Source: Micavibrio aeruginosavorus EPB (GTDB taxonomy: Bacteria > Pseudomonadota > Alphaproteobacteria > Micavibrionales > Micavibrionaceae). Taken from it: a DNA stretch of 64,000 nt. The notes under the pieces were generated by a model, which had not been told where the DNA came from, did no database searches, and was given only the letters and a program-made list of their open reading frames with translations. A program made the position numbers and the translations under genes. The stretch is taken from assembly GCF_000348745.1 (NCBI RefSeq), contig NC_020812.1, positions 1,807,444 through 1,871,443 on the forward strand, written 5' to 3'. Positions 1,753-32,508 of this stretch are shown in pieces. Every line of letters begins with the position of its first letter. Within the stretch, counting starts at the first letter, position 1.

Positions 1753-2994
1753 TTGACAAAATCCGATTCAAACGGCGCCAGCCATTCCAAACGCAGCTTT
1801 GACACCGGCGAAATCATCATGCGCCAGGGTGATGCGGGCGATTGCGCCTATATCATCGAAGAAGGCACCGTCGAAATTCTGATCGAAAAACCCGATGGCC
1901 GTGTTCAGCACGTGGGCACGCGTGGTCCCGGCGCATTGATCGGCGAAATGGCCATTGTTGACAGCGCACCCCGCACCGCAACCGTGCGCGCATTGAAACC
2001 ATGCAAGATGCTGGAAATCACGATGGAGGATTTCACCAGCCGCCTGACCGGCACCGATCCGGTCATGCAAATGATTATGCAGGTGATCCTGACCCGGTAT
2101 CGCGATACGCTGACACGCGCCGATATTTTACACGACAGCGATTCATTCCCGCCCCCAGAAATGCTGGAACAGGATCTGGCGGAAAAAGCCGATGTTGTTG
2201 AATCCATCAAAATCGCCAACGAATTTCAAACCGCGCTGGAAAAGGGCGAACTGTCCCTGCACTATCAACCGATCATTGATTTGACGCGCGGCAATGTTGT
2301 CGGGTTCGAAGCGTTGATGCGCTGGATCCACCCGGAGAAGGGATTTATTTCCCCCGGCGTCTTTATTCCCATCGCCGAAAAGAATGGATTGATTGTTCAG
2401 GCCAGCCGTTGGGCGCTGGGTGAATCATGTCGCGCCCTGCGCCGGATCGAGGCCCGCGTTGGCGCCGATCGCGAAATGTATATGAGCGTCAACTTCTCCT
2501 CGACCGATTTCGCGTCGGAGAATTTTATCGACCACCTCTATAACATCATCAGCGAAAGCGATGTCCTGCCGACACAGGTCCGTTTGGAAATCACCGAACG
2601 CCTGCTGATTCAGCAACCGGATAACGCCAAAGCGATGTTGCAGATGTGCAAAGATGCCGGCATGGGCATTGCGATTGACGATTTCGGGACGGGATACTCC
2701 TCGCTCAGCTATCTCTACTACTTCCCGATTGATACGTTGAAAGTGGACCAAAGCTTCGTTCGCGCGATGCAGCGGGATGAAAAAAGCCTGGAACTGGTTA
2801 AATCCATCGTCGGGCTGGGCAAAAACATGAAAATGTCGATTATCGCCGAAGGTGTTGAAACTGTTGAAGAAGCCCGCCTGTTGCAGGATATGGGCTGTGA
2901 CAAGGTGCAGGGTTACTATTTTGCGAAACCGATGCCGGAAAAAGACGTCATCGAGTTCCTGCGCAATTATCAGCCGGTCAAATTGCGGGCGTAA
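1753..2994 (+). CDS. Cyclic-nucleotide-binding domain / EAL c-di-GMP phosphodiesterase
   Basis: Predicted cytoplasmic enzyme hydrolysing c-di-GMP to pGpG, with an N-terminal cNMP sensor. Residues about 15-130 form a CNB domain (GEIIMRQGDAGDCAYIIEEG, then a GEMAIVDSAPRTATV phosphate-binding cassette). Residues about 160-400 form the EAL domain with the signature EAL at 186-188, VNFSSTDF, LEITERLL, DDFGTGYSSL (D309, D310), the catalytic-glutamate segment IIAEGVET and QGYYF. All metal and catalytic positions I can recognise are present, so activity is likely. The start is uncertain: I chose TTG 1753; the frame is open back to 1654, and a different frame (1611-1802) looks equally coding upstream. 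It is next to a secreted adhesin-like gene and a cyclase-T1SS operon, which suggests a shared signalling role. Confidence 0.85.
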   Translation: MTKSDSNGASHSKRSFDTGEIIMRQGDAGDCAYIIEEGTVEILIEKPDGRVQHVGTRGPGALIGEMAIVDSAPRTATVRALKPCKMLEITMEDFTSRLTGTDPVMQMIMQVILTRYRDTLTRADILHDSDSFPPPEMLEQDLAEKADVVESIKIANEFQTALEKGELSLHYQPIIDLTRGNVVGFEALMRWIHPEKGFISPGVFIPIAEKNGLIVQASRWALGESCRALRRIEARVGADREMYMSVNFSSTDFASENFIDHLYNIISESDVLPTQVRLEITERLLIQQPDNAKAMLQMCKDAGMGIAIDDFGTGYSSLSYLYYFPIDTLKVDQSFVRAMQRDEKSLELVKSIVGLGKNMKMSIIAEGVETVEEARLLQDMGCDKVQGYYFAKPMPEKDVIEFLRNYQPVKLRA

Positions 2995-3023
2995 CACGCG
3001 CCCTACGCTTTTGAATTCTCATT

Positions 3024-3052
3024 AAAATCCGCAGGTTTTCTGCGGATTTTTT
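3024..3052 (+). terminator. Rho-independent terminator after the CNB-EAL gene
   Basis: TCCGCAG (3028-3034) pairs with CTGCGGA (3040-3046), followed by six T. A preceding AAAA extends the stem with the T run. It lies 30 bases past the stop codon. Confidence 0.85.
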
Positions 3053-3255
3053 AATGGATAAAATTTTATCTATATCCGCCTCAAGTCCTTCAAAGATTTC
3101 AATAAAATGCAGGACAATAATTACACGAAATTAAACAATGTCCGGGATAATGGGAGAATGCGGCACAGGTGTATGCACCCGTCCGCATCGTGTGCATCGC
3201 GGATCAAATGGGGATTTCGCGGGTGAATTTGGGGAATATCAAAGGGGTTTAAAAG

Positions 3256-6200
3256 ATGGCACGGAATATTGATGGCAGTGTCGAAGGCGTTTCCAGTTCC
3301 GATCAGGGAACAGTGAAAACAATCGATGCCAGCGGACAGACGAAAATCGATCTGCCGGATTCCAGCTTCATCACGGATGTAACGATGACGCGCGACGGGC
3401 AAGACCTGACCCTGCGCAATGATGATGGCCAAACCATCACCATCGAAAATTATTTCAGCGCCGACACCGCCCCCGTGTTGAGCAGCCCGAATGGCGCCAT
3501 CCTCAGCCCCGCGATGGTCAAATCTTTTGTTCACAGTGAAACCGCAGGACAATACGCGCAAATGGGCTCCGTCGATGACGTCAGCCCTGTTGGCGAAATC
3601 ACCGAATTGAATGGCAACGCAACCGTTACCCGCGCCGATGGCACAACCGAAACCATCACGCTGGGAACGAAAGTTTTCCAGGGTGACGTGATTGAAACGC
3701 AGGGTGATGGTGCGGTCAATATCACCTTCATCGATGAAACCAGCTTCGCCGTATCCGAAAACGCCAAACTGGCGATTGACGAATATATTTTCGACCCGGC
3801 CAGTGGATCGGGGAAAACGGATTTCTCGGTTTTGAAAGGCGTGTTCGTGTTTACGTCCGGACTGATCGGACGTGAAGATCCGGATGACGTGACAATCGAC
3901 ACCCCTGTCGGGTCCATCGGTATTCGCGGCACAACCATCATGGGCGATATCGACCCCAGCGGTCAGAGCCAGATCACCGTGGTCGAAGGGGCCATCGTCG
4001 TGCGCACCGAAGCGGGTGAACGCACATTGGCCGAACAATTCGAAACCGTCACACTGACCGGACAGGACAGCGAACCCGCCTATCAAGGCACGCTGGATGC
4101 CAACCGCGTGACCGATGATTACGGTGCCGTAAAATCCGTATCCGGTACGTTGTTCAGCGCCTTTGGGACGGGTGATGCCCCATCCGCGGACACCGCAGGC
4201 GAGGCCCCGGCCGATGCCGCCGCACCGGACGCGTCCGAAACGACCGTTCCCGAGGGTGAAGATGACGGTGCCGCACAGGAAAGCACCCCGGCAGAGACAG
4301 CCCCGCAACAAGATGGCGCGTTGAACGTTGCCCCCAAGACAGACACAGCTCTGGTCGGTGATGATAGCATGACCGGCGGACTGGATAGCGGGTTTGACCG
4401 CGCCGCCGATACGGGCACCACACTGACCAACGCAACAGGAACAGTCGGCAACACCGTTGGGACGATTGTAAACACAACGGGCGGGATCTTGGGATCCACA
4501 ACAACCAACACCGCGCCCGCCATCACAACACGACCAACGGACACAACCAGCCCGACCGATCCGTCTGTCCTGCCCAACACGGGCACGGATACGGGAACGG
4601 GTTCGGGCGGCGGGAGTGTGACAACACCGCCACCACCGACCTTGGCCCTGAACCTGAACATGCTTGGAAACCTGAGCGATATCAGTCTGTCCGGCGTTGT
4701 TGTCGGGACGGTGTCGACAACCGTGGCCTATACTGAAACATTGAACTTTGTTTTGAATTCCCCCTTAAGCGGCGGTGGGGATCCACTGTTCCAGCTGGTA
4801 TCCACGGGTCCGGATTCAGCCAATATCGTTCTGACCCCCGCGGGGGCCCTGCATCTACTGGCCAACCAGACTTATAATCTGAGCGTGACCGTGACCGAGC
4901 CATCCTCTGGACGCACGGCATCCACGGCCAACACCGCCCCGGTTATGGATGAGGCCGATATTTCCCTGAACGATATTCTGGGGGCCGGGTCCACAGCCGA
5001 TGGACGGTATATCCCGTCCATATCCGCGGGATCACACCACGCCCAAGCGGTGGCCGCCGTCGGCGATACGGATGGAAATGGCACCGCAAATTACATTTTT
5101 GCCAGCAACAATACGTTGTTCCTGGACGATAATGGCGGCAACATTTCACAATACAGCCTGTCAACACTGGGATTTGACAACACCGAGGGCCTGTCGATCA
5201 ACGGGGTCGGTGACGTGGATGGCGACGGACTTTTGGATTATATCGTCGGTGGCCGAAACACATCCAGTGGCGAAGGCCGCGCCGTATTGATCAGCGGAAA
5301 TGGCACCACATCCGGGGTCGATGGATCGTCAGGCGTAAGCCATTTTGGCCATGAAGCAATTGGTATTGGCGACATTAACGGCGATGGATATGCCGATGTG
5401 ATGATCACCTCCCCCAGTGCATCCGTCTATGGTAAGGCCGGAATTTATCTGGGTGGCAGTGATTTCAGCAATATTTTGACAACCACGCCGGATTACGTGA
5501 TCAACGGTCCGTCGACAAACAGCAATCTGGGCCGTGAAGCCGCCAGCCTGGGCGATTTGAATCAGGATGGATTTGACGATTTCGCTGTTACAGTACCGAA
5601 AACAGCCGGCGCCATGAACGGTGAAGTCTGGATTTATAACGGCGGCAACACATTAAACACGGCCACCCCGTTCAAAATCACCGGGTTGCAGACCGGATCC
5701 GACGGCGGATTGGGCCTGATCAATCTGGGCGACATGAACGGCGGGTATAAAAACGATTTCGCCATTTATGAAAGCGGAACCGACACAATTCACGTGGTCT
5801 TTGGTGAAGGAAAAACGTTCACCGCCGGTGGAACAACAACGATCAGTACCGTGTCTGATTTACGCATTACGGCCAGCGACGCCAATTCAAAAATTGAAGG
5901 CGGCGGCAGTGTTGGTGATTATAACGGTGATGGGCGCGATGACATGGCGGTTGCCGTTCGCACCGATTCCACGATGGATATTTACGTGGTTTACGGTCGC
6001 GCCGGTGTCGCAGGTTCGATTGATCTGGATAATTTGACATTGGAAAAACACCAATACGAACATATTCGCATCAATCTGGCCGACCCGGCTCTGGGACTGG
6101 GCAACCCCACGACCGACCCATTTGATGTTGAGATCACCGCGCTCGGCGACTTGAACGGCGACGGATATGATGATTTCGCCATTGGCACACCGGACAGCAA

Positions 6201-28098: not shown

Positions 28099-29949
28099 TT
28101 AATTGGCCTGGCGACGCAAGAAAGCCGGAATATCCAGGTCTTCATCATTTTGCAGACCCGGCTTGGTGGCCACAGGCGCATCAATCGCCAGGGCTTGCTG
28201 AACCGGAGCATGGTGCCCGGCGCGCAGACCACCCGCATTATTGTGGCTTTCGCCAGCCTGCGGAGCGGCTTGTTCACGAACATCCAGCACGTCCTCTTCT
28301 TCGTGGCGGCGTGTAAACCGCTCGAAAATGGACGGCGTGCGTTTTTTCGGCTGGGCCGCCTGTTGCGTGGCCACAGATGGCGGACGCAGGGTCAGACCAG
28401 ACGGTTGTACCGGGGCCTCGACCGTGCGGTGCATCGGTGCGGGGGCGCCATAGGACACAACATCCGGCTGGCGTTCCGGTTCAACGGCGCGCGGCGGGAT
28501 AAAGGATTCACCGTAACGGCTACCACGCATCGAGTCTTGGGTCGGACGGGTTACCGGTTGCGGTGCGGCTTGTTGCTCATACTGATGATAGTACGATTGC
28601 TGGGCCTGAACTGTTTCTTGGACCTGAACCTGGGTTTGTTCCTGCACATAGGCTTGAACCGGGGCCACTTCGACGGCCTGCTGTTCAAACATATCCATTT
28701 CAACGGCCTGATCCATCTTGCGTACAGCGGAACCAACCATCGAACCGGATACCGCGGACGTTGCCGTCGTGCGCGCCGGAGCGGACACAGCCGCATGCGT
28801 CGTCGTCGGACGAACCGGCGCAGACGTTTGTGCCGGAGCCGTCAGCTTTGCAGCCGGAGCCACAACAGCATCCGCCGGACGGGCGGTGCGGTCAACGCGA
28901 CGTTCAGCCTGTTGCGCACTGGTCAGCGCGTTCAGAACCGTGTTGGTTACGTTTTTTGGGCCACGTGATTTGGCAACAGCCTCAACATCGATACCCGTTG
29001 CGAAAACGGATACGCGCATCACGCCGTCCAATGTGCCATCGAACGTGGAACCGAAGATGATATTGGCATTCGGGTCAACTTCGTCACGGATGCGGTTACA
29101 GGCCTCGTCCACTTCGAACAGGGTCATGTCGTAACCGCCGGTCACGTTGATGATCACGCCATGGGCGCCCTTCATCGATACGTCGTCCAGCAACGGGTTG
29201 TTGATGGCGGCTTCGGCAGCTTCGACAGCACGGCGTTCGCCAGTGGCTTCGCCCGTGCCCATCATCGCCTTGCCCATTTCCATCATCGCGGTGCGGATGT
29301 CGGCAAAGTCCAGGTTGATCATACCCGGCATAACCATCAAATCGGTTACGCCACGTACACCGGATTGCAAAACACCGTCCGCCATTTTGAAGGCATCGGC
29401 AAAGGTGGTTTTTTCGTTCGCAACACGGAACAGATTCTGGTTCGGAATAACGATCAGCGTGTCGACATAATCCTGCATCTCGGCGATACCAGCCTCGGCC
29501 ATCTTCATGCGCAGGGCGCCTTCGAAATGGAACGGCTTGGTCACAACACCGATGGTCAGAATACCCTTGTCGCGGCAGGCTTTGGCGATAACGGGTGCAG
29601 CGCCCGTCCCCGTGCCACCGCCCATACCGGCAGTGATAAAGGCCATGTTCGCACCATCAAGAAAGCGCAGAACATCATCCAGAGATTCTTCAGCAGCCGC
29701 GCCGCCGACTTCCGGTCGCGCACCCGCGCCCAGACCGCCGGTCACCGCCATACCCAACTGAACCTTGTTTTCACACAGGGACCCGTCGAGCGCTTGCGCA
29801 TCTGTATTGCAGACCACGAACTCCACACCTTCCAGACCGGAGGTGATCATATTATTGACGGCATTGCCGCCCGCGCCGCCGACACCGACGACTGTAATTT
29901 TCGGAGACAATTTCTTAACCTCTTTATGCTGCATTCTTACATTGATCAT
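28099..29949 (-). CDS. ftsZ: Cell division GTPase FtsZ
   Basis: Tubulin homologue forming the Z ring. The 616-residue product has the GTPase core (about 15-330) with [11 protein letters not shown], the tubulin signature [10 protein letters not shown], the T7 loop NLDFAD and [14 protein letters not shown] long variable linker follows, including a Gln/Val-rich stretch (about 415-460), then the conserved C-terminal peptide ([13 protein letters not shown]) that contacts FtsA and other partners. It is much longer than E. coli FtsZ (383), as in several alphaproteobacteria. GGAGG 10 bases upstream supports ATG 29949. It has its own promoter region and a strong terminator. Confidence 0.98.
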
Positions 29950-30190
29950 TTTGAAAGGACCTCCGTGGACGCGGTGGAGTTGACTACTCGTGATTCTATG
30001 GGGGATGATTCGCCATTAAAAGAGCCTTCGCGCCGCAGAAGCGCAGGAAAGCCCTGAAATACGTGCCATTTTACCCGTTTAATTCATTGTTTTTCAGGTG
30101 AGGACGAACCGCTAAGTGATTCATCCGACTCAAGACTTCGCCAGTGTGGCAAACCCACATTGATTCGGAAAGAGTCGCGCGGCGTTTTCC

Positions 30191-30239
30191 TGTGGATAAA
30201 TATTGATTCTGTGCATGGATTCAATACGATTCGTCCACA
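30191..30239 (-). promoter_or_regulatory. ftsZ upstream promoter flanked by DnaA-box-like sites
   Basis: This lies in the 356-base gene-free stretch 29950-30305. Minus-strand TTGAAT (30219-30224) and TATTTA (30197-30202), 16 bases apart, make a plausible promoter. A perfect DnaA 9-mer (TTATCCACA on the minus strand, 30191-30199) overlaps the -10 box, and a related TCGTCCACA (plus strand, 30231-30239) lies upstream of the -35, giving an inverted CTGTGGA...TCCACAG pair. DnaA control of ftsZ is known in Caulobacter. The rest of the gap (about 240 bases of leader) shows nothing else I can name. Confidence 0.5.
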
Positions 30240-30305
30240 GGCATCAGGGGATGAAGCGCGGGATAAAGCTGCGGATGATTCAGAAACACCGCCAAGACAG
30301 GCGTT

Positions 30306-31094
30306 TTAAGCCCCAACCCCATACAGCGCCAGCCACAGATCGGCGCGCGGGCCGTGCTGATGCCGTTCAAATTCACGCCGCCGCTGGGCCGCATCCGCAT
30401 CGGTGAAAATTTCCGGATCAAACGTCACAACCTGCCCGTTCGGCAAAATGCCGACATTCTGTGGTTCGGCATCATAATCAAACCAGTCACGCGGATAGGC
30501 TTTGTTCGTCCCCCACGACAGATCCACAATGGCATTGGTGTAGGCGCGACCACCCTCCGACACCAGACGTTCGGGCAGGCGCGTCAGCGGAACCACTTCG
30601 GGCAACATTTCAATGCGCACCTGATCAAAATCATCCAACATATTCTGGTTGCTGGAAAAAGCCTGCAACACGGTCGAATGAAGGGGGCGCGGTTGGCGGC
30701 AATGATGATCGCCCTCAACCCGCACCACGCGCATTTCGCCGCTGGCGCTATGCCGGGCCCGCAACGCCACGGCCCGCCCGCCATTGCCCAGATAGGATAA
30801 ATCGGTATAGCCATGATCAGCGACGAAATCCGTCATGCGCGCCCGCACGACATCGGGCATCGGAGCCCACGCCCGCACCGCCAGATTTCCACCTAGATTA
30901 GAGAAGGTCGGCGCCAATTGATTCAAAGCGTTAAACGCATCGCTTAACGTGGCATAGCGGGTTGCGGGCACATCGTTTTTGGGTTGCCAGATCGCATCGT
31001 GATTGACCATGCCATCCGCATGAAAACTGGCCCACGCCTGTGCGCGCATCCATTCAATCCGCCCGTTCCATGTCCGTAAATTGGGTTTTGCCAT
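30306..31094 (-). CDS. Putative kinase-fold protein between ftsA and ftsZ
   Basis: I do not recognise a named family. The 262-residue product reads like a small APH / protein-kinase-like fold: a glycine-rich turn (YLGNGGRAVAL, 101-111), a following strand (RVVRVEG, with Arg where the ATP-binding Lys is expected), a D-x4-N catalytic-loop look-alike (D208 to N213 in YDAEPQNVGI) and a possible Mg-binding Asp in VVTFDPEIF (D226). The N-terminal 90 residues are unassigned. No signal or membrane helix is visible. ATG 31094 was chosen; an in-frame upstream start at 31154 would reach into a repeat element. It breaks the usual ftsA-ftsZ adjacency. Confidence 0.6.
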   Translation of the reverse strand: MAKPNLRTWNGRIEWMRAQAWASFHADGMVNHDAIWQPKNDVPATRYATLSDAFNALNQLAPTFSNLGGNLAVRAWAPMPDVVRARMTDFVADHGYTDLSYLGNGGRAVALRARHSASGEMRVVRVEGDHHCRQPRPLHSTVLQAFSSNQNMLDDFDQVRIEMLPEVVPLTRLPERLVSEGGRAYTNAIVDLSWGTNKAYPRDWFDYDAEPQNVGILPNGQVVTFDPEIFTDADAAQRRREFERHQHGPRADLWLALYGVGA

Positions 31095-31148
31095 GGGGTT
31101 GGTTATAGCGGAGGTTTCAAACCCGAACAAGCAATCCAGCCCCCTATG

Positions 31149-31219
31149 CGTCATCCCGGCGAAAGCCGGGATCTTCCAGCCATAAGGGACGAAGACCCCG
31201 GCTTTCGCCGGGGTGACGA
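31149..31219. repeat. Palindromic dispersed-repeat pair (CCCGGCGAAAGCCGGG type)
   Basis: Two palindromic units lie head to head: one with CCCGGCGAAAGCCGGG (about 31155-31170) and its near inverse with CCCCGGCTTTCGCCGGGG (about 31196-31213), each flanked by GTCAT/GTGACGA ends. Units of this sequence are scattered in intergenic spaces of many alphaproteobacterial genomes. It could also act as a terminator or RNA-stabilising hairpin after ftsA. Confidence 0.75.
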
Positions 31220-31239
31220 CTCAATCGGTAATCACGATT

Positions 31240-32508
31240 TTACCAGTTTTCCCGCAACCACAAACGCACGCGGTCGAACAGGTTGCCCGGCTCGGCCTGG
31301 GCCATGATGGCGGCGGGCATTTCGTCGGCATGTTCGGAGATGAAGGTCAAAAGACCGGCGGTCGTGGCAAAAGCCGGGCCGCTCACCGCTTCGGGTAAGG
31401 CCCCGACGCGCAGAGGACGCCCCAAGCGCACCTGTTTATCCAAAACATGCTGCCCCAGATCGCGCAGGCCCGGCAGCTGGCTGGCTCCGCCCGTCAAAAC
31501 CACACGGCGGCCAATGGCCGAGCCCAAACCGGAATCATCCAGACGGGCCCGCACCAATTCAAAAATTTCTTCCAAACGCGGCTGGATAATCCCGACCAGC
31601 AAGGACCGCGGTACATGGTTGGGCGCGACATCCGGGTCTTCACCGATTTGCGGCACGTCGATCAATTCGCTTTCATCCGTCGAGGACGCCATGGCCGAGC
31701 CATACAGCGTTTTCAACCGCTCGGCCGCCGCCATGGTGGTGGTCAATCCGCGCGCCACGTCACTGGTGACATGTTGGCCGCCGACGGGAATGGAATCGGC
31801 GTAAATCATTGATCCGCCTTGGAATACAGCCAGCGACGTCACGCCCCCGCCCATATCAATGACGGTACAGCCCAGCTCCATCTCATCCTCCACCAGACTG
31901 GCCAGACCAGCGGCATAGGAGGACAGGCACATCGCCGTAATATCCAGATGCGAACGTTCAATGCATGTCGCAATATTGCGCAACGCCCCGGTATCCCCCG
32001 TCACCAGATGGATATGAGCCTGCATTTTTTGTGTGAACAATCCGCGCGGATCGCGCACGCCACCATGGCCATCAACGGTGAATCCCGTGGCTATGGTGTG
32101 GACCAGTTCGTGATCAGTGCTGAGCGCTTGCGTCTGCGCCCGGGCCAGCGCGCGGCGGATATCGTGATCCGTCACCTCGTGTCCCAGAACGTCAATATCA
32201 ACGCCAAAGGAATGCGATTGCGCATGAATGCCGGGAACGTTGATCACAACTTCGCGCAAGGGATAGCCCTTGATCGTCTGCGCCGCCATGTGTTCGGCCG
32301 CATTCACCGCCTGACGGATAGAAGCTTCGGCCGCCTCCAGATCAATAACGGTGCCGCCCTTGATTCCGTTGGAGGCCTGATGACCAATGCCCAAAACTTC
32401 AAACCCGCCCTCGTCATCAATAATGCGCGCGATAAAGCATGCAATCTTGCTGCTGCCAATATCCAGTGCGGCAAGGACAGAGCCTTTTGGTTTTGGTTTG
32501 TGTTTCAT
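31240..32508 (-). CDS. ftsA: Cell division protein FtsA
   Basis: Actin-like ATPase that anchors FtsZ to the membrane and recruits division proteins. The 422-residue product shows the phosphate-1 motif (AALDIGSSKIACFIA), the 1C domain typical of FtsA, phosphate-2 (CTVIDMGGGVTSLAVF), the adenosine motif (VLTGGASQLPGL) and a C-terminal amphipathic end (LFDRVRLWLRENW) suited to membrane binding. It starts 23 bases after ftsQ. Unusually it is separated from ftsZ by a repeat and a kinase-fold gene. Confidence 0.97.
   Translation of the reverse strand: MKHKPKPKGSVLAALDIGSSKIACFIARIIDDEGGFEVLGIGHQASNGIKGGTVIDLEAAEASIRQAVNAAEHMAAQTIKGYPLREVVINVPGIHAQSHSFGVDIDVLGHEVTDHDIRRALARAQTQALSTDHELVHTIATGFTVDGHGGVRDPRGLFTQKMQAHIHLVTGDTGALRNIATCIERSHLDITAMCLSSYAAGLASLVEDEMELGCTVIDMGGGVTSLAVFQGGSMIYADSIPVGGQHVTSDVARGLTTTMAAAERLKTLYGSAMASSTDESELIDVPQIGEDPDVAPNHVPRSLLVGIIQPRLEEIFELVRARLDDSGLGSAIGRRVVLTGGASQLPGLRDLGQHVLDKQVRLGRPLRVGALPEAVSGPAFATTAGLLTFISEHADEMPAAIMAQAEPGNLFDRVRLWLRENW

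Follow-up and report, generated by a model that had tools for sequence, protein, structure and literature searches.

A gene with kinase-like motifs stands between ftsA and ftsZ in the 64,000-nucleotide stretch of DNA analysed here (the window), and its place raises two questions: whether its product is built like a kinase, and whether it serves cell division. The gene, called X below, occupies 30306-31094 on the minus strand and encodes a protein of 262 residues (P0001), as read from the open reading frame and its translation. With ftsA upstream (31240-32508) and ftsZ downstream (28099-29949), both on the strand of X, the arrangement given in a preliminary description of this DNA was confirmed.

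A constrained gene of native composition

X was found in one copy in the genome, which has 2,458,610 bases and belongs to the predatory genus Micavibrio (search at E 10). The nearest genome (G002) carried it in the identical place, with 84% identity. Between these two genomes, dS was 0.38 and dN 0.084, giving a dN/dS of 0.22, while dN/dS against G002 ranged from 0.004 to 0.062 in eight neighbours (LpxC, FtsZ, FtsA, FtsQ, Ddl, MurB, MurC and MurG). X was the fastest evolving among the nine genes tested, and its dN/dS exceeded that of each tested neighbour by a factor of 3.5 or more. This ratio, together with the conservation in G002, shows that X is a real, constrained gene under purifying selection. 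GC and GC3 of X equalled those of the adjacent genes, and recent transfer was rejected on the ground of this native base composition.

The ftsA-to-X interval (31095-31239, minus strand) contained a dispersed hairpin repeat, which was missing from the corresponding interval of G002 (43 bp). The palindromic repeat GTCATCCCSGCGAAAGCCGGGATC gave 30 matches in the genome at up to two mismatches and none in the control, and the predicted folding energy of the interval was -74.3 kcal/mol. An alternative start at the ATG at 31154 would give a protein of 282 residues; the 262-residue start was preferred because the longer reading begins within the repeat hairpin absent in G002. A TATAAC before X, from which came the idea of a leaderless promoter, was present only in the two nearest genomes.

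Family and distribution

The X family was detected in 9 of the 142 genomes of the order with a six-member profile and was not found by that search in the other 133; P0001 alone as query matched in 6 of 58 genomes. Members fell into a short group of about 262 to 278 residues (P0001 and its counterparts in G002, G001 (L041), G027 (L043), G077 (L042) and G104 (L052)) and a long group of about 364 to 386 residues (G009 (L005), G008 (L006) and G093 (L051)). A search of 385 genomes of the class added one plausible relative (L054 in G191, E 1e-8) and seven matches limited to the catalytic loop, and a search of 398 genomes of the phylum gave, besides X itself, ten matches of this restricted kind. Such loop-only matches sat in open frames of about 510 to 580 residues. 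Seven of the eight frames scanned were ABC1/UbiB proteins (PF03109), and the eighth (L065, probably a wrong frame) matched nothing.

Genome contigs gave no match with a single-protein query and three loci with an alignment query. Pfam, NCBIfam, PHROGs and PADLOC contained no family that fits X. Searches of viral contigs (queries A2 and the long group), phages (query P0001) and plasmids (the long homologue L005 as sole query, not P0001) returned no relatives of X. L054, the most distant relative (1177-2067 of its locus), was located 0.26 kb from an opposite-strand gene with a Zeta_toxin domain (2329-3357, Pfam E 2e-25). Literature titles and the first parts of abstracts, in a collection outside which most subscription journals fall, held nothing on X or on a kinase gene between ftsA and ftsZ. 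The family is best read as divergent, protein-kinase-like, almost confined to Micavibrionaceae and apparently undescribed so far.

Kinase landmarks in the protein

A Gly-rich turn, a D-x4-N loop and a Mg-type Asp, with Arg in place of the ATP-binding Lys, had been pointed out in the preliminary description, and all were present in the protein. They go beyond chance: in an alignment of ten sequences (16 to 84% identity to the query), G105, D208, N213 and D226 made up four of the seven invariant columns. The glycine-rich turn GNGG (G103-N-G-G106, residues 103-106; 30777-30788) lies between predicted strands beta1 and beta2, and G105, at this turn, was present in all ten sequences. R125 (30720-30722), in the predicted third strand, aligned with the Lys of the beta3 'VAIK' motif. 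The catalytic-loop-like segment D208-A-E-P-Q-N213 (30456-30473) followed; its D-x4-N spacing was kept in all nine members from Micavibrionaceae and was ambiguous by one residue in L054. The equivalent of the DFG motif was D226-P-E228 (30411-30419), whose Asp was conserved in 10 of 10 sequences. All four features are encoded on the minus strand.

The two groups differed at the beta3 position, where the six short members all had Arg and the three long ones all had Lys; L054 had a residue other than Lys. Gly of the DFG motif was confined to the long group, which displayed D-M-G where the short group displayed D-P-E or D-P-Q (the latter in three of the six). The Lys and D-M-G of the long group are what common descent of the short group with a more canonical kinase-like form would predict. 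The helix-C segment of the short group (residues 128-150) contained no invariant acidic residue, and the structure model was poor there. P0001 has three Lys in all (residues 3, 39 and 198), none of them within predicted beta1 to beta3, which makes a relocated Lys of the WNK type unlikely. Since Arg replaces the beta3 Lys in all six short members, X is, judging by its sequence, probably a pseudokinase or an atypical kinase.

Profile and structure comparisons

When a nine-member profile was compared with PDB sequences, all 16 matches were kinases, none of them significant (E 0.11 to 2). In hhalign, the wider profile A6 reached a probability of 81% (E 1e-5, score 50.3) against a set of ABC1/UbiB proteins and of 11% (score 32.4) against three Ser/Thr kinases of the order. 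The alignment of A3 to Ser/Thr kinases brought the Gly loop, the Lys/Arg position, D-x4-N and DFG into register over 135 columns. Column shuffling of 100 profiles gave best scores of 21.7 (UbiB) and 17.0 (kinases), so that none of the shuffles reached either real score, and the controls (reversed profile, FtsA and APH) stayed at background. It was the broader profiles A3, A4 and A6 that gave the hhalign support: the four-sequence profile A5 was weak by itself (UbiB 6.9%, kinases 0.3%), and global mode gave low probabilities throughout.

Pfam kinase models did not match X even at E 10, and X obtained no Pfam score for PF03109 or PF00069. The proposed likeness to APH and protein kinases was supported for the kinases, through profiles and models, but not for APH: PF01636 gave no Pfam match at E 10, and 20 APH proteins from genomes of the order, compared by hhalign, scored at background.

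Structure models were built with AlphaFold2 on four sequences. The model of P0001 with three homologues had a pLDDT of 54.5 and a pTM of 0.55; its Foldseek rows were all kinases so far as titles tell (three titles were incomplete), with a best E of 0.32, and Z in VIA was at most 5.3. From the same four sequences, the model of the homologue L042 had a pLDDT of 61.5 and a pTM of 0.65, many C-lobe residues being below pLDDT 50. Its best 50 Foldseek rows all bore titles of kinases or kinase complexes (probability 0.92 to 1.00), with E at or below 0.001 in two of them and TM-scores of at most 0.34, and the matches listed by VIA were all kinases (best Z 7.1, none at 8 or above). Against a viral structure library, most named rows were kinases, the exceptions including a nidovirus polyprotein and an uncharacterised phage protein. 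Fold searching thus placed kinases in the top rows, but at low model confidence, TM-score and Z. The lines of evidence for the kinase-like reading converge, each being weak by itself, and taken together they make a kinase-like fold of X highly likely.

Position of X among related genomes

Among 30 ftsA loci, X was located between ftsA and ftsZ only in the genome studied here (G000) and in G002. In a third congener (G001), X stood between ftsQ and ftsA, and the ftsA-ftsZ gap was empty of genes. Two other genomes of the genus with assembled dcw genes (G003 and G004) had X at neither the ftsQ-ftsA nor the ftsA-ftsZ junction, and no copy was found elsewhere in these assemblies, which are 81 to 86% complete. 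The preliminary description had named absence from this place in close relatives as evidence against its proposal, and such absence was seen in part, G002 keeping the place, G001 showing another and G003 and G004 being without X. In other genera, genes of the family were distributed far from the division cluster, adjoining oligopeptidase-like genes in G027 and G077 and a peptidyl-prolyl-isomerase-like gene in G104 (all named by eye).

The ftsQ-ftsA gap was shorter than 100 bp in 24 of the 28 genomes measured. That of G004 spanned 674 bp (about 2767-3443 of L015) and encoded, on the opposite strand, a small Gly/Pro-rich protein, apparently secreted. A degenerate copy of X was sought in this gap and left no trace (best E 0.13).

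In a tree of FtsA and FtsZ, G001 grouped with G003 and G004 with 100% support, and in a tree of X the three copies of the genus formed one clade, also with 100% support. Taken together, the trees make it probable that the common ancestor of the genus already had X near ftsA, that X moved past a single gene and that it was lost on at least one occasion. X touches ftsA, on one side or the other, in all three congeners that have it. This adjacency is the main argument for a link to division; purely accidental insertion would not predict it. The 'division-linked' part of the preliminary description was weakened nonetheless, as only the two nearest genomes share the place between ftsA and ftsZ.

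The ftsA-ftsZ slot and the ftsZ leader

The 30 loci surveyed came from 57 genomes with ftsA matches. At 18 of them ftsA and ftsZ were 185 to 406 bp apart, at ten they were separated by one or two genes, and two had no ftsZ in the fetched stretch. Eight further Micavibrionales genomes carried differing slot genes, on the opposite strand in two (L016/L112, L015/L120, L024/L121, L026/L119, L027/L114, L028/L115, L031/L116 and L034/L117). By eye, these were a pentapeptide-repeat-like gene (G004), a cation-antiporter-like gene (G012), two opposite-strand methyltransferase/EgtB-like genes (G025) and a gene pair including one response-regulator-like gene (G009); G011, G027, G034 and G036 held uncharacterised proteins. 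The inserted genes of the eight genomes did not match X at E 1e-5. As the gap bears different genes across genomes, position in this slot is no evidence of a role in division.

The X-to-ftsZ interval (29950-30305, minus strand) is the leader of ftsZ: in G003 and G001 its counterpart by alignment was the ftsA-ftsZ gap, in G004 the leader. It harboured a perfect DnaA box at -250 (30191-30199), and its 356 bp contained 10 GANTC sites, compared with a mean of 0.83 per 400-base segment here (318 segments). Across the ftsZ leaders of L011 to L040, a perfect DnaA box was present in 26 of 28 (own leader included), the mean GANTC count was 5.4, and a GANTC pair 9 bp apart was counted by eye in 22 of 28, again with the own leader included. 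GcrA was also encoded in the genome. In Caulobacter, GANTC methylation is reported to activate ftsZ transcription directly (PMC3973325, available in part). The pattern suggests control of ftsZ by DnaA, GcrA and CcrM across the order, and, going by the conserved DnaA box and GANTC cluster, ftsZ is probably transcribed from a separate cell-cycle promoter that lies downstream of X. Insertion before ftsZ may be tolerated because ftsZ appears to have a promoter region of its own.

Possible roles of X

X is best read, with reasonable but limited confidence, as an accessory gene with a divergent kinase-like fold that is not part of the division machinery, because of its occurrence in 9 of 142 genomes, its raised dN/dS, its varying genomic places and the presence of other genes in the slot. 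As such a gene, it would have come to lie next to ftsA in the genus ancestor. The protein would have a two-lobed, kinase-like fold and may still bind Mg-nucleotide by way of its D-N-D residues; Arg125 would touch phosphate and might pair with the third residue of 'DPE' in place of a helix-C Glu. In that case it could be a pseudokinase for nucleotide sensing or scaffolding, or an enzyme of very altered chemistry.

A division-linked regulator, either a pseudokinase binding FtsA or FtsZ or a kinase phosphorylating them and kept near ftsA for co-expression, is unlikely. The adjacency to ftsA in the three congeners having X, their single well-supported clade and the short distance to ftsA in G002 speak for it, and RqkA of Deinococcus, which phosphorylates FtsA and FtsZ according to the accessible part of the report (PMC6052341), provides a precedent. 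Against these stand the two congeners with assembled dcw genes and the 133 genomes of the order in which X was not found, its remoteness from the cluster wherever another genus has it and the dN/dS well above that of each tested neighbour; synteny and evolution rate make a division role less likely. One specific version is quite improbable, namely that a family centred on Micavibrionaceae, with Arg for the near-universal beta3 Lys and the DPE acid doing the work of a helix-C Glu, would bind nucleotide and modulate FtsA or FtsZ of a predatory bacterium; if true, it would place a nucleotide-sensing pseudokinase in the division cluster of a predator.

Fast evolution could also be the mark of an arms race, X being an effector or toxin-like protein of kinase fold deployed during predation or against phages or rivals. 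This we regard as distinctly unlikely: patchy occurrence, the neighbourhood of L054 with its Zeta_toxin-domain gene and the kinase-like effectors reported from Legionella (PMC9758233, available in part) agree with it, but inspection by eye showed no secretion signal, searches of PADLOC, PHROG, phages and plasmids gave no match, and overall selection on X was purifying, not positive. That the fold is not a kinase fold at all, with the motif order and weak matches reflecting convergence on a D-N-D metal site, would fit the low model confidence and the lack of a Pfam match; it is very improbable, however, as profiles, structure searches with two models, shuffles and the Lys-bearing sister group all point to kinases.

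The location between ftsA and ftsZ should be taken as a warning, as it does not indicate a division role in Micavibrionaceae. The X family also offers a natural series from Lys to Arg within a single bacterial family, three members having Lys and six Arg, in which the function left to a kinase fold can be studied once the ATP Lys is lost and D-N-D is retained.

Comparison with known kinases

ABC1/UbiB proteins (ADCK, PF03109) were the best profile match to X, over the catalytic loop and the DFG segment, both sharing D-x4-N followed by a P-D-G turn and then D. They differ from X in the length of their open frames (about 510 to 580 residues, compared with 262), and X is without the beta3 Lys. 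Bacterial Ser/Thr kinases (PF00069) align with X at the Gly loop, the beta3 residue, D-x4-N and the DFG position, and PknB and PknA/PknB entries were among the Foldseek rows of the L042 model; X departs from them by Arg for Lys, DPE for DFG and no clear helix-C Glu.

The beta3 Lys is described as the most conserved residue of the kinase superfamily and as required for catalysis (PMC4718504, available in part). Arg at this site is known in bacterial pseudokinases, namely ActPs2 and the DYD family; the latter, membrane-associated kinases of actinobacteria and firmicutes, has lost the helix-C Glu, and in models the acid of its DFG-like motif forms a pair with this Arg (PMC12599244, available in part). 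X lacks the DYD motif, having DPE or DPQ instead, and the likeness is one of shared traits only. X resembles the DYD family in three respects: R125, apparently no conserved helix-C acid, and an acid as the third residue of its DFG-like motif (DPE).
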